Positions 51,813 through 56,036 of a DNA stretch of 64,000 bases are shown piece by piece. Numbering within the stretch: the first letter of the stretch is position 1; each line of letters starts with the position of its first letter. The notes under the pieces were generated by a model. That model was given only the letters and a program-made list of their open reading frames with translations. It made no database searches and was not told the DNA's origin. The stretch is taken from positions 992,001 through 1,056,000 of the forward strand of contig NZ_CP041656.2 in assembly GCF_007290395.2 (NCBI RefSeq), read 5' to 3'. A program made the translations under genes and the position numbers. The stretch comes from Bradyrhizobium cosmicum (GTDB lineage: Bacteria > Pseudomonadota > Alphaproteobacteria > Rhizobiales > Xanthobacteraceae).

Positions 51813-53450
51813 ATGGACGCGATCAACCAGCCGTTGCTTAGCGTGCACGACCTCTCGGTGGCCTTCCATCAGGGCGGCGCCACGACGCTTGCGGTCGACA
51901 AGGTCTCGTTTCAGATCAAGCGCGGCGAGTGCCTGGCGCTGGTCGGCGAATCCGGGTCCGGCAAGTCGGTCAGCGCGCTTTCGATCCTGAAGCTGCTGCC
52001 CTATCCGAACGCGTCGCATCCCTCGGGCAGCATCCGCTTCAAGGGGCGCGAGCTGATCGACCAGTCGGAGCAACAGATGCGGGAGATTCGCGGCAGCGAC
52101 ATCTCCATCATTTTCCAGGAGCCGATGACCTCGCTCAATCCGCTGCACACGATCGAGGCGCAGATCGGCGAGATCATCCAGCTGCACAATCCGACCAGCA
52201 ATGCGCAGGCGCGCCAGCGCACGCTGGAGCTGCTGACGCAGGTTGGCATTCCCGAGCCCGAGACACGGCTCAAGAGCTATCCGCATCAGCTTTCCGGCGG
52301 CCAGCGCCAGCGCGTGATGATCGCGATGGCGCTCGCCAACGAGCCGGACCTGCTGATCGCGGACGAGCCGACCACCGCGCTCGACGTTACCGTGCAGGCG
52401 CAGATCCTGGCGCTGCTTGCGGACATCCGCGCACGGCTCGGCATGAGCCTGCTGTTCATCACCCACGATCTCGGCATCGTGCGCCGCATCGCCGATCAGG
52501 TCTGTGTCATGAAGGGGGGCGAGATCGTCGAGCAGGGACCGGTCGAGCAGGTCTTCAAGACTCCGAAACATCCCTACACGCGGGACCTGCTGGCGGCGGA
52601 GCCGAAGCCGGATCCAGCGCCGCCGCAGCCGGATGCGCCCGTGGTGATGTCGGCCGACGATTTGAAGGTATGGTTTCCGATCAAGCGCGGCCTGATGCGC
52701 AAGACGGTGGGTCACATCAAGGCGGTCGACGGCGTCAGCCTCGCCGTACGCAAGGGCGAGACACTCGGTGTCGTCGGTGAATCCGGCTCGGGCAAGACGA
52801 CGCTGGGGCTCGCATTGCTGCGGCTGATCTCGTCGAATGGACGCATCGTATTCCTGGGCAAGGACATCCAGGGCCTGCGCTTCAAGGAGATGCGGCCTTT
52901 CAGGCGCGACATGCAGATCGTGTTCCAGGATCCGTTCGGTTCGCTCAGCCCACGCATGTCGATCGCGGACATCATCGCCGAAGGTCTCTCAGTGCACCAG
53001 CCAACGCTGTCGCGCGAGGAGCGCGAGGCGCGCGTCGTCAAGGCGCTCGAGGATGTCGGGATGAAGCCGGACACCCGCTACCGCTATCCGCACGAGTTCT
53101 CGGGCGGGCAGCGCCAGCGCATCAGCATCGCGCGGGCGGTGGTGCTGGAGCCGGATTTCGTCGTGCTGGACGAGCCGACCAGCGCGCTCGACATGTTGTT
53201 CCAGGCGCAGATGGTGGACCTGTTGCGCGAGCTCCAGCGCAAGCGCGAACTCACCTACATGTTCATCTCACACGATCTGCGCGTCGTGGCCTCGCTTGCG
53301 AGCCATCTCATCGTGATGCGCGGCGGCAAGGTGGTCGAGGAAGGCCAGGCGGCCGAGCTGTTCAAGAACCCGAAGACCGATTACACGCGCGCGCTGTTTG
53401 CAGCGGCGTTCCGGCTGGAGACGGCAGGGAAGGGGTCGGTTGCAACCTGA
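51813..53450 (+). CDS. yejF: Peptide ABC transporter duplicated ATPase YejF
   Basis: 545 aa with two complete ATPase halves. First half: Walker A GESGSGKS near residue 45, signature [16 protein letters not shown], Walker [14 protein letters not shown]. Second half (from about residue 285): GESGSGKTT near residue 325, [28 protein letters not shown]. It energises YejB/YejE. It starts 3 bases after yejE. In E. coli the Yej system imports microcin C; in rhizobia related systems affect tolerance of plant antimicrobial peptides and import murein peptides (family knowledge). Confidence 0.94.
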
Positions 53451-53452
53451 TT

Positions 53453-53466
53453 TTGCGTGATCGCAA
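53453..53466 (+). promoter_or_regulatory. FixK2/FNR-type box upstream of the leader-peptide gene
   Basis: TTGCGTGATCGCAA fits the rhizobial FixK2 consensus TTG(A/C)-N6-(T/G)CAA at every fixed position and is itself nearly palindromic. A possible -10 box TATTCT lies at 53493-53498, placing the box near -41 to -46 from transcription start, as in FixK-activated promoters. The next start codon is 53547. It begins 2 bases after the yejF stop. Confidence 0.5.
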
Positions 53467-53546
53467 TCACGGCGGCGGAGTGTTCGCCGCGATATTCTGT
53501 ACGCATGGACGCGAGGCAGTCTCGCGACAGCGACAGGAGTGCAGAA

Positions 53547-53741
53547 ATGACGTTTATTGCAATCGAAGCAGAGGCGATGCGGGAGCTGTCCGCGATCGAG
53601 CTCGACGGGGTCGTCGGTGGCGCGGCTCCGCGTGGAGGCTACGGCCATGTCTACGATGTGCCGCCGCCGCCGCGCGTCGTGAAAGCGCCCGTATTGGGTG
53701 GCGGCGGCCCGACGAACCTGCCGCACTTGCACGCGTTCTGA
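53547..53741 (+). CDS. Peptide precursor with a double-glycine (bacteriocin-type) leader
   Basis: 64 aa. Residues 1-25 end in MRELSAIELDGVVGG, matching the double-glycine leader pattern LSxxELxxIxGG cut by C39-type peptidase transporters. The 39-residue remainder is Pro-, Gly- and His-rich: AAPRGGYGHVYDVPPPPRVV, then KAPVLGGGGPTNLPHLHAF; it has no cysteine. AGGAG lies 8 bases upstream. The in-frame ATG at 53457 would precede this ribosome site and add 30 unrelated residues. It lies 96 bases after yejF. No modification enzyme or C39 exporter is in the window. Function unknown. Confidence 0.65.
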   Translation: MTFIAIEAEAMRELSAIELDGVVGGAAPRGGYGHVYDVPPPPRVVKAPVLGGGGPTNLPHLHAF

Positions 53742-53815: not shown

Positions 53816-54670
53816 CTAGAGTCGCTTGATTGCGACGACTTCGCTGCCGGTCGCCTTGATCCGTGCAAGCGCCGGCTCGATCGGCTCGATCGCCGTTGCC
53901 ATATGATGCGCATTGGCGTGGACCATGGTGCCGCCGTCGCGGACGATCGCGACATGGCCCTTCCAGAAGATCAGATCGCCACGCCGCAAGCTGTTGCGCT
54001 CGTGCGGCTCCAATGCGCGGCCGAGCCCTGCCTGCTGCATGTCGCTGTCGCGGGGACAGCCGATGCCCGCGGCGGTCAGCGATACCTGCACCAGGCCCGA
54101 GCAATCGATGCCCAGACTGCTTTTGCCGCCCCAGAGATAGGGCGTGCCGACGAAGCGCTCGGCGACGGCGACGAAGTCCGGCTCGCGATGATCGAGCGGT
54201 GCAAGATGCGTTCTCGGCAGAAAGGCCCCGTTGGGCGTCACGGCGAAAATGCGGTCCTCGCGCGCCACCGCGATCCTGGAGCCAAGCACCAGCGCTTCGG
54301 CTGGCGGCAGCTTGATCGAAGGTCCGGGGAAGGCAAACGTCCGTAGCGCACTGACGACGTGGGTCGGGGCGGCCGTTGGCTTCATGAGCGCCGCATCCGG
54401 CAGCCAGCCGACATAGCCATCGCCGTCGAGCTGGCCCCAGGCCCAGCCCTCGCCGTTGCGATCATAGACTGTGACGCGCTCGCCCCGCAGCGCCTGCGTC
54501 ATCAGCATGGCGCTCGAGGACGGCTGCTCGCGCACCGGCGCGATCGGATCGACCACCTCGAACTCCTCGCCGGCGACGAAGCGGTCCGCTTTCACCTTGC
54601 CTTCGAGGTATTTCGCGGCGAGGTCGCCGCGCGCCGGCGTCAGCCTTGCATCGATTCCTGGATCACGCAT
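53816..54670 (-). CDS. NlpC/P60 family cysteine peptidase with SH3-like domains
   Basis: 284 aa. Residues about 35-160 contain bacterial SH3-type segments (VREQPSSSAMLMTQALRGERVTVYDRNGEGWAWGQLDGDGYVGWLPD). The catalytic domain has the nucleophile in GIDCSGLVQ near residue 190, KGHVAIVRDG (catalytic His) near residue 240 and HANAHHM near residue 252. This YkfC-like layout cleaves gamma-D-Glu-diaminopimelate bonds in murein peptides. No signal peptide, so probably cytoplasmic. Its ATG overlaps the stop of the upstream aminopeptidase gene by 8 bases, so the two are translationally linked. Confidence 0.9.
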   Translation of the reverse strand: MRDPGIDARLTPARGDLAAKYLEGKVKADRFVAGEEFEVVDPIAPVREQPSSSAMLMTQALRGERVTVYDRNGEGWAWGQLDGDGYVGWLPDAALMKPTAAPTHVVSALRTFAFPGPSIKLPPAEALVLGSRIAVAREDRIFAVTPNGAFLPRTHLAPLDHREPDFVAVAERFVGTPYLWGGKSSLGIDCSGLVQVSLTAAGIGCPRDSDMQQAGLGRALEPHERNSLRRGDLIFWKGHVAIVRDGGTMVHANAHHMATAIEPIEPALARIKATGSEVVAIKRL

Positions 54671-56036
54671 AGCGCTCACTCAGCAATGCGTAGATGGCGC
54701 GCGCGGCCTGGCACTCGCCGCCCTCGGGCCGCGCCGGCTTCGCCGACGGCGTCCAGCCGTAGATGTCGACATGCAACCAGCTTTTGGCCTGCTCGACGAA
54801 GCGTTGCAGGAACAGCGCGCAAATGATCGAGCCGGCAAAGCCGCCCGACGGCGCGTTGGTGATGGTGGCGGTCTTGGAATCCAGCCACGCATCGTAAGCC
54901 GGCCACAGCGGCATACGCCACAACGGATCGTTCTCCTTCACCGCGTAGCGCGCGACGTCGGCAGCAAGCGTCTCATCATTGGTGTAAAAGGGCGGTAAAT
55001 CCGGCCCCAGCGCGACGCGTGCGGCGCCGGTCAATGTGCCGAGATCGATCAGGAGGTCCGGCTTGTCCTCGTCGGCCAGTGCCAGCGCGTCGGCGAGCAC
55101 GAGGCGGCCTTCCGCGTCGGTGTTGCCGATCTCCACCGTGATGCCCTTGCGCGAGGTGAAGATGTCGAGCGGGCGGAAGGCGTTGCCCGCGACCGCGTTC
55201 TCGACCGCCGGAATCAGCACGCGCAGCCGCACCTTCAGCTTGGCGTCCATCACCATGCGCGCCAGCGCCAGCACGTTGGCGGCGCCGCCCATGTCCTTCT
55301 TCATGATCAGCATGCCGCTCGACGGCTTCAGGTCGAGCCCGCCGGTATCGAAGCAGACGCCCTTGCCGACCAGCGTCACCTTGGGGTGAGCCGGATTGCC
55401 CCAACCGATGTCGATCAGCCGCGGCGCGCGGTCGGAGGCCATGCCGACGGCGTGGATCAGCGGAAAGTTCTTCGCCAAATCCTCGCCGATGGTGCAGGCA
55501 AAGCTTGCGCCGAATTCGGCCGCGAGGTCCTGCGCGGCTACAGCCAGCTCCGCTGGCCCCATGTCGTTGGACGGCGTGTTGATGAGATCACGCGCCAGCA
55601 TCGCGGCTTCCGCGATGCGATCGATCTCGGCCGCATCGACGCCATCAGGCGGCACCAGCCGGACGTCGGGCCTGTCAGCCTTGCGGTAGCGCGCGAAGCG
55701 GTAGCAGCCCAGTGCAAAAGCGAGCGCCGCCAGCCGTGCATCGTGCGGTGCATTGGCAAAGCGGTAAATGCCCGGCGGCAGCAGGCCGGGCAGCGCGCCC
55801 GGCCGGAACAGGTCACGCGATCTGGCGTCGTCGTCCTCGAGGCCGAACAGGATCTGCGCAATCGCGCCGTCGGGCGCTGGCGGCGCGAGATAGCCGCCCG
55901 GCTTGGCGGTAAAGGCGCTGGCAGTGGCGAACTGGCACTGCGCCGGCGTCAGTGTCTCGCGCACCGCATCCCAACCCGACCTCGTGACGAAGGTGATCGG
56001 GGTGGCGGCGGACGATGTCTCGAAGACGGAAGGCAT
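54663..56036 (-). CDS. M17 leucyl aminopeptidase family protein
   Basis: 457 aa. Metal-binding and catalytic blocks of M17: VTLVGKGVCFDTGGLDLKPSSGMLIMKKDMGGAAN from about residue 218 and the NTDAEGRLVLADAL signature near residue 303. The N-terminal regulatory domain is short. The enzyme removes N-terminal residues from peptides using two metal ions. ATG 56036 starts MPSVFETSSAATP; upstream in-frame codons have no family sequence. First gene of a two-gene unit with the NlpC/P60 peptidase: together they would degrade imported (murein) peptides. Confidence 0.92.
   Translation of the reverse strand: MPSVFETSSAATPITFVTRSGWDAVRETLTPAQCQFATASAFTAKPGGYLAPPAPDGAIAQILFGLEDDDARSRDLFRPGALPGLLPPGIYRFANAPHDARLAALAFALGCYRFARYRKADRPDVRLVPPDGVDAAEIDRIAEAAMLARDLINTPSNDMGPAELAVAAQDLAAEFGASFACTIGEDLAKNFPLIHAVGMASDRAPRLIDIGWGNPAHPKVTLVGKGVCFDTGGLDLKPSSGMLIMKKDMGGAANVLALARMVMDAKLKVRLRVLIPAVENAVAGNAFRPLDIFTSRKGITVEIGNTDAEGRLVLADALALADEDKPDLLIDLGTLTGAARVALGPDLPPFYTNDETLAADVARYAVKENDPLWRMPLWPAYDAWLDSKTATITNAPSGGFAGSIICALFLQRFVEQAKSWLHVDIYGWTPSAKPARPEGGECQAARAIYALLSERYA

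Follow-up and report, generated by a model that had tools for sequence, protein, structure and literature searches.

The NHLM export system, with its NHLP/Nif11 precursors (TIGR03793, TIGR03794, TIGR03796, TIGR03797 and TIGR03798), was described by Haft et al. (2010; PMC2887384), and precursors whose genes lie at a distance from their modification genes are described in the accessible part of it as well. The code by which C39 domains recognize a leader, L-12, E-8, L-7, V-4, G-2 and G-1, is given in the accessible text of PMC6363468. Other described systems to which the locus studied here can be compared are the double-glycine (C39/PCAT) class II bacteriocins and peptide pheromones, the CTB family bacteriocins of cyanobacteria (NF038167) and the FixK2 regulon of Bradyrhizobium. 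The locus lies in a 64-kb stretch of the Bradyrhizobium cosmicum genome, hereafter the window, whose positions are used throughout unless a locus (L) number is given; B. cosmicum is coded G000, and other genomes of the genus likewise bear G numbers. It carries a gene for a 64-residue peptide which, in our view, is probably expressed from a CRP-type class II promoter and exported in trans by an NHLM-type C39 exporter.

The coding sequence occupies positions 53547..53741 of the forward strand, from an ATG at 53547 to a stop codon at 53739-53741, and a Shine-Dalgarno sequence, AGGAG (53535..53539, +), stands 7 bases 5' of the ATG. The first 25 codons (53547..53621, +) specify a double-glycine leader, MTFIAIEAEAMRELSAIELDGVVGG, ending in MRELSAIELDGVVGG, and the next 39 (53622..53738, +) a cationic core rich in proline, glycine and histidine (8 Pro, 7 Gly, 3 His and 1 Thr, with neither Cys nor Ser; computed pI 9.7). 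The initial annotation, made from the letters alone, had reported this frame with its strong ribosome site, its double-glycine leader and its Cys-free core of 39 residues, and all of these were confirmed, coordinates included. Under a motif rule restricted to ORFs of 25-160 amino acids with an ATG start and a Shine-Dalgarno sequence, this is the sole ORF of the window with a double-glycine-like leader. The gene lies directly 3' of a gene for a yejF-type peptide-importer ATPase (51813..53450, +; ABC_tran and oligo_HPY domains), with no other gene between, and is faced by a convergent gene with NlpC/P60 and SH3 domain matches (53816..54679, -); both are context and stand outside the unit considered here. 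An alternative start at GTG 53457 would give a protein of 94 residues, and its frame is open in all seven copies of the family. It was rejected since variable columns 5' of the ATG are spread evenly over the three codon phases (12, 11 and 13 of 30), meaning that this region behaves as non-coding, and since no Shine-Dalgarno sequence is seen at the GTG, compared with the strong one at ATG 53547. A mobile origin was also discarded, there being no match to the gene in plasmid or phage records.

Homologues with a conserved leader and core indicate that the frame is more than a chance one. A single-sequence search of 5.8 billion proteins returned 6 homologues at 70-88% identity, and a profile search, in which the best 7988 candidates were scored, 19 related proteins including one 39-residue fragment; the two that bear an organism name are both from Bradyrhizobium (sp. 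Bra64 and manausense). Among 265 genomes of the genus, with at most the best 23 candidates per genome scored, 11 gave matches at E 0.01, and full-length members amount to seven copies in six genomes (G000, G071, G010, G229 with two, G230 and G137). Within that scope the family is rare. G025 retains a 3' remnant of the gene, and the four other matching genomes gave partial matches. Those of G124 and G287, like a match in G006 from another search, are partial and at other loci and were judged spurious, and the matches in G152 (L024) and G195 (L025) were set aside as unlinked peptides with similar leaders.

All seven full-length copies are located between yejF and the NlpC gene, so that the homologues with conserved leader and synteny proposed as a check in the initial annotation do exist. 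The comparison of core with leader that it also proposed gave, between B. cosmicum and its closest relative, G071, a dN/dS of 0.14 overall, 0.12 for the leader and 0.15 for the core, which is not neutral; the gene is real and under purifying selection. Between distant copies the constraint on the core is weak or the core is diversifying, as its dN/dS exceeds 1 in 5 of the 21 pairs of copies (the leader's in one), these being short and noisy comparisons.

Counted back from the two glycines, the leader displays V-4, L-7, E-8 and L-12, that is, the residues of the C39 code. Over 23 aligned sequences, L-12, V-4 and the glycine pair are present in all and L-7 in 22, G137 being the sole leader without it; E-8 is invariant in both leader alignments. 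This code is what the peptide shares with the double-glycine bacteriocins and pheromones and, together with the C39 exporter of the same genome (see below), it supports a function as an export leader, as had been proposed at the outset. The window peptide is set apart from those by its core, which is rich in Pro and Gly, has no Cys, bears a GGGG...PH..F pattern towards the C-terminus and matches no family, and by being encoded alone between yejF and the NlpC/P60 gene.

The statement that the peptide fits no known class thus holds for the core, which matches no Pfam or NCBIfam family at curated cut-offs, and fails for the leader. Some family members have sub-threshold Pfam and NCBIfam matches, which reach into the leader. 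Sub-threshold leader matches to NF038167 were found for 5 of 8 family members (E 0.01-0.13), but none for the window peptide itself; the best reaches 16.0 bits against a cut-off of 32 and the core is not matched. The likeness to the NHLM system resides in the exporter genes, TIGR03796 and TIGR03794 in B. cosmicum and TIGR03797 in G071, whereas the precursor differs in its length of 64 residues, its short leader and a core nearly devoid of Ser, Thr and Cys. The NHLP/Nif11 leaders (TIGR03793, TIGR03798) were not matched by any of 8 family members in an NCBIfam search to E 10, from which the program dropped most matches above 0.1. Of 19 cores, 7 are devoid of all three of Ser, Thr and Cys, which means that lanthionine or azole rings cannot be a general feature, and the window core, with its single Thr, does not offer the Ser, Thr and Cys that are modified in lanthipeptide or azole (TOMM) precursors. 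The AlphaFold model is of low confidence (mean pLDDT 60) and gives no confident fold for the 64 residues; its only helix, residues 16-22, is within the leader. Tentatively, the core would be unmodified and flexible and act outside the cell.

A conserved signal upstream of the gene is a CRP-type operator, GTGATCGCAATCAC (GTGA-N6-TCAC; 53457..53470, +), at -90 from the ATG. The stricter form GTGAT-N4-ATCAC is found at exactly -90 in all seven family copies (170 bases scanned upstream) and once in the window, where 0.05 are expected; GTGA-N6-TCAC occurs there four times, against 0.6 expected. We extended the comparison to other genes for double-glycine peptides, scanning 300 bases upstream. In a first group of 13 (from G000, G071, G010, G229, G230, G152 and G195), 12 have GTGA-N6-TCAC at -87 to -95. 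In a further group of 34, drawn from the matches of the leader model described below and with starts assigned by rule (ATG with a Shine-Dalgarno sequence preferred; two without a usable start, one with TTG only), 25 have it somewhere in the 300 bases and 23 at -80 to -100. By comparison, four control patterns gave 0/34, mononucleotide shuffles 0.13/34 on average, and some 0.6/34 would be expected from the raw rate of the window (4 per 64 kb). Altogether, the operator stands at -75 to -100 in 43 of 54 genes, some with unrelated cores, and is lacking at that distance from the other 11, counts in which related genomes are not independent. The 47 genes outside the window family form 22 core clusters, with the box in 14 and none in 8.

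Aligning these 43 promoters on the box revealed a second conserved block, C A T N C T G, at box positions 37-43, in which 37 promoters share A38 and 35 share T42. In the window it corresponds to a -10-like element, TATTCT (53493..53498, +), which predicts a transcription start near 53505. The distance from the operator centre to this hexamer is 29.5 bp, and a separation of 29.5 bp is the geometry of class II CRP promoters. A regulator of the CRP/FNR superfamily would thus read GTGA-N6-TCAC and switch on the class II promoter; operator and spacing are conserved, while the regulator and the signal it answers to are our supposition. The strict form is not sufficient to delimit a regulon, since it has 20 sites in the genome and, of the 15 that were read, 10 lie inside called ORFs. 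The box was also considered as a terminator of yejF, and this was rejected, as it is absent from all 17 peptide-free yejF-NlpC intervals. A point against the shared switch is that none of the five exporter operons examined has the box in the 500 bases upstream of hlyD. In the vicinity of the exporters of G195 and G152 are found a CHASE2-cyclase, a cNMP-binding/patatin protein and a cNMP-binding protein; such neighbours fit a control by cyclic nucleotides and prove nothing. In G195, the CHASE2-type nucleotide cyclase and the cNMP-binding/patatin protein adjoin the NHLM exporter itself (L110:56-3960).

The initial annotation had given a different reading, in which the gene is driven by FixK2 at low oxygen or in nodules and the adjacent Yej transporter provides self-uptake or immunity. 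The FixK2 consensus in Bradyrhizobium is TTG(A/C)-N6-(T/G)CAA, from the accessible text of PMC5582078 and PMC6710368, and TTGCGTGATCGCAA (53453..53466, +), which overlaps the conserved operator, does fit it. The regulon so described shares with our locus the regulator superfamily and this single match, but the operator conserved here is GTGA-N6-TCAC. The match is not established as more than chance, the window containing six against 3.2 expected, and the FixK2 box is kept in only 1 of the 7 family copies and in none of the 13 and 34 other genes, hence in 1 of 54, which does not support the proposed control. Measured to the -10-like hexamer, the distance of its centre is 33.5 bp instead of 29.5, and TTGCGTGATCGCAA is probably a coincidental match.

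As to Yej, the accessible part of PMC10128002 presents it as a promiscuous peptide transporter and reports that YejABEF takes up a peptide antibiotic in Sinorhizobium meliloti, and the position of the gene directly after yejF lends this part of the reading some appeal. We compared 30 yejF-NlpC loci, with yejF ends extrapolated from alignments. Both flanks were available in 19, namely 17 peptide-free loci, our own and the G025 remnant. In the 17 peptide-free loci yejF is in the same place, the flanks converging within 13 bases in 8 and flanking other DNA in 9. The peptide copies of G229 and G230 are 2.2-3.6 kb away from yejF, with other genes, among them a LysR gene and one for a lactonase-fold protein, in the interval. 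These two facts leave the suggested functional tie to Yej without support, and the adjacency looks incidental. The LysR and lactonase-fold genes of G229 and G230 adjoin the copies (L018:9002-12041, L019:7668-9955).

The nodule role fared no better: NodA, detected in 18 of the 36 genomes of the genus searched (two weakly), has no match in B. cosmicum, although nifH is present twice (C1:4748250-4749071 and 4774994-4775815, 27 kb apart). Control by FixK2 with a role for Yej is consequently, on all these counts, highly improbable, and the CRP-type class II promoter is the one retained below.

Between the -10-like block and the Shine-Dalgarno sequence, the predicted transcript would form a short stem-loop, CGCGAG-gcagt-CTCGCG (53510..53526, +), just before the strong ribosome site. 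A stem of at least five pairs is present in 38 of the 43 UTRs, against 17.7 in shuffles, which for the box in the 34 genes, the UTR energies and the UTR stems were all mononucleotide shuffles. A smaller set of 22 UTRs contained 12 compensatory cells, compared with 3.4 in shuffles (none of 500 as high), and 2 pairs with a compensatory change against 1.3 (158 of 500 shuffles), which is not unusual; these UTRs were hand-picked from 42 distinct ones, mostly for visible stems, so that the pairing test over all 43 is the fairer one. Folding-energy z-scores were unremarkable (13 of 43 below -1), and the stem accordingly rests on the pairing counts. A search of Rfam gave no match to a known RNA element at E up to 0.1.

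A candidate exporter for such a leader was found far from the gene. The B. cosmicum genome has two PF03412 domains. One belongs to a TIGR03796 protein (NHLM_micro_ABC1, 1037 bits; 5525433-5527550, -) encoded beside a TIGR03794 HlyD gene, and keeps, as read by eye, the Cys and His motif of active C39 domains; the initial annotation had suggested looking for a C39 exporter elsewhere in the genome, and it is thus at about 5.53 Mb, unlinked to the peptide gene at 1.05 Mb. The other domain lacks the catalytic Cys and is near an ORF of 1849 codons; this C39-like ABC protein and the large ORF (L023:7648-18979) resemble a type I secretion pair.

We then asked how far leader and exporter go together in the genus. 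A leader model of 12 rows (one duplicated), comprising the window family and one peptide each of G152 and G195, matched 26 of 265 genomes at E 0.001 with at most the best 31 candidates per genome scored, and TIGR03796 is above its cut-off in 67 of 265 with the best 4 scored, so that absences, resting on the best 4-31 candidates per genome, are not absolute. The exporter is present in 24 of the 26 genomes with such leaders and in 43 of the 239 others (p 3e-14). After removal of the 8 training genomes the exporter is present in 17 of 18 leader genomes, compared with 43 of 239 (p 4e-11); the remaining genome, G256, has an incomplete match to the exporter where a contig ends. Taken by itself, the window family gives 5 of 6 against 62 of 259 (p 0.004, or 0.048 with one of each close pair dropped). 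These tests share with the box counts the non-independence of related genomes. Of the 32 leader matches outside the training set, 20 are within 8 kb of such an exporter and 12 farther (distances to one exporter per genome, the partial one for G256).

In B. cosmicum itself, the model also found a peptide gene that lies 2.4 kb away from its exporter and has the leader MSVPENNDLASCELSLEELDSVAGGG, very like the DAQATCELSAGELEQVAGGG of the G010 copy of the window family, and a third peptide with such a leader is encoded at 6.19 Mb. Two genomes supply natural failures that support the link to the exporter. G137, the sole genome with a full frame and no catalytic C39 (the catalytic Cys is missing from all four of its C39-like domains), is the one that lost L-7, and G025, which has only the remnant, has one C39-like domain, without the Cys. 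That G137 nevertheless keeps a frame counts against the reading. The C39 domain of the NHLM exporter would accordingly be expected to read the 25-residue leader and to cut after Gly-Gly, and the 39-residue core would be exported with the HlyD partner; the leader code, the active-site residues and the co-occurrence are the observations that suggest these steps.

The exporter operon of B. cosmicum is not intact, which raises the alternative that the gene is a relic, a formerly exported peptide stranded by a damaged operon, possibly still expressed, with a product that no longer leaves the cell. Compared with G071 (L106), the second NHLM exporter gene (L022:6356-8424, about 5.523-5.525 Mb), homologous to the TIGR03797 gene of that genome, is truncated and has lost its 3' part, and the neighbouring GG-peptide gene behind it is missing, as is the greater part of a further ORF. 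B. cosmicum may therefore be impaired in export, and the G025 remnant and the leader change in G137 also favour the relic. Against this, neither HlyD nor the subunit with the C39 domain is shortened in B. cosmicum, the operator, -10 element, stem, Shine-Dalgarno sequence and leader code are all present, and dN/dS remains at 0.14 relative to G071, whose operon is intact, though this ratio averages both lineages. We hold the relic to be unlikely and retain the exported peptide.

What the core does outside the cell can be proposed more tentatively still. Most likely it would be a bacteriocin-like weapon against near relatives, with a signalling role less likely and close behind. The pheromone alternative, which differs from the preferred explanation in the function of the core only, is favoured by the use of double-glycine leaders for pheromones too, by sub-threshold BlpC and ComC matches of the G010 copy, and by a core that seems, by eye, to be without the helix-like pattern of exporter-adjacent peptides. 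It finds no receptor gene adjoining the peptide gene, however, and the differences between the cores of different species and the presence in G229 of two different copies 1.4 kb apart suit weapons at least equally; we regard it as possible, though somewhat doubtful. No immunity gene was recognised beside the window gene. In G229, two small hydrophobic-looking ORFs beside the peptide copies are candidate immunity genes with no family above cut-off. The cores of two other GG-leader peptides of B. cosmicum (L022:12788-13015, -, and L112:5583-5798, -) are tryptophan-rich and helix-like (GLWGWIKHEAS...) and by eye resemble class II bacteriocins.

Precursors of exported peptides are usually found through their adjacency to an exporter or a modifying enzyme. 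Here, peptides encoded at unlinked sites are tied to one exporter by the operator, spacing, UTR stem and leader that they share, and sequence alone could suffice to list the whole set, which would lend itself to a test with a single exporter deletion and a single regulator. The best reading of the window gene would make it an orphan member of a CRP-controlled set of exported peptides, whose members, scattered over the chromosome, combine a common leader type and promoter with unrelated cores; that such peptides have an on-switch and an export tag in common suggests that they form a hidden, co-regulated secreted set. Whether this extends to a genus-wide CRP-controlled secretome, in which a fixed module of promoter, UTR stem and leader, present at many chromosomal sites, carries unrelated, fast-changing cores to one NHLM exporter in trans, is to our mind an even question. 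If so, species would exchange their peptides but retain a single switch and a single way out, and CRP-type control would be tied to the secretion of peptides in an important genus of bacteria that live in soil and in symbiosis. A search of the open-access literature found no such CRP-controlled regulon of secreted peptides, prior publication being possible. In G195, 27 matches to the leader profile, a good number of them weak, were obtained with E up to 10 (L164-L173, L025). The cores of the 11 that were examined are mostly unrelated, and 5 of these 11 have the operator at -75 to -100.
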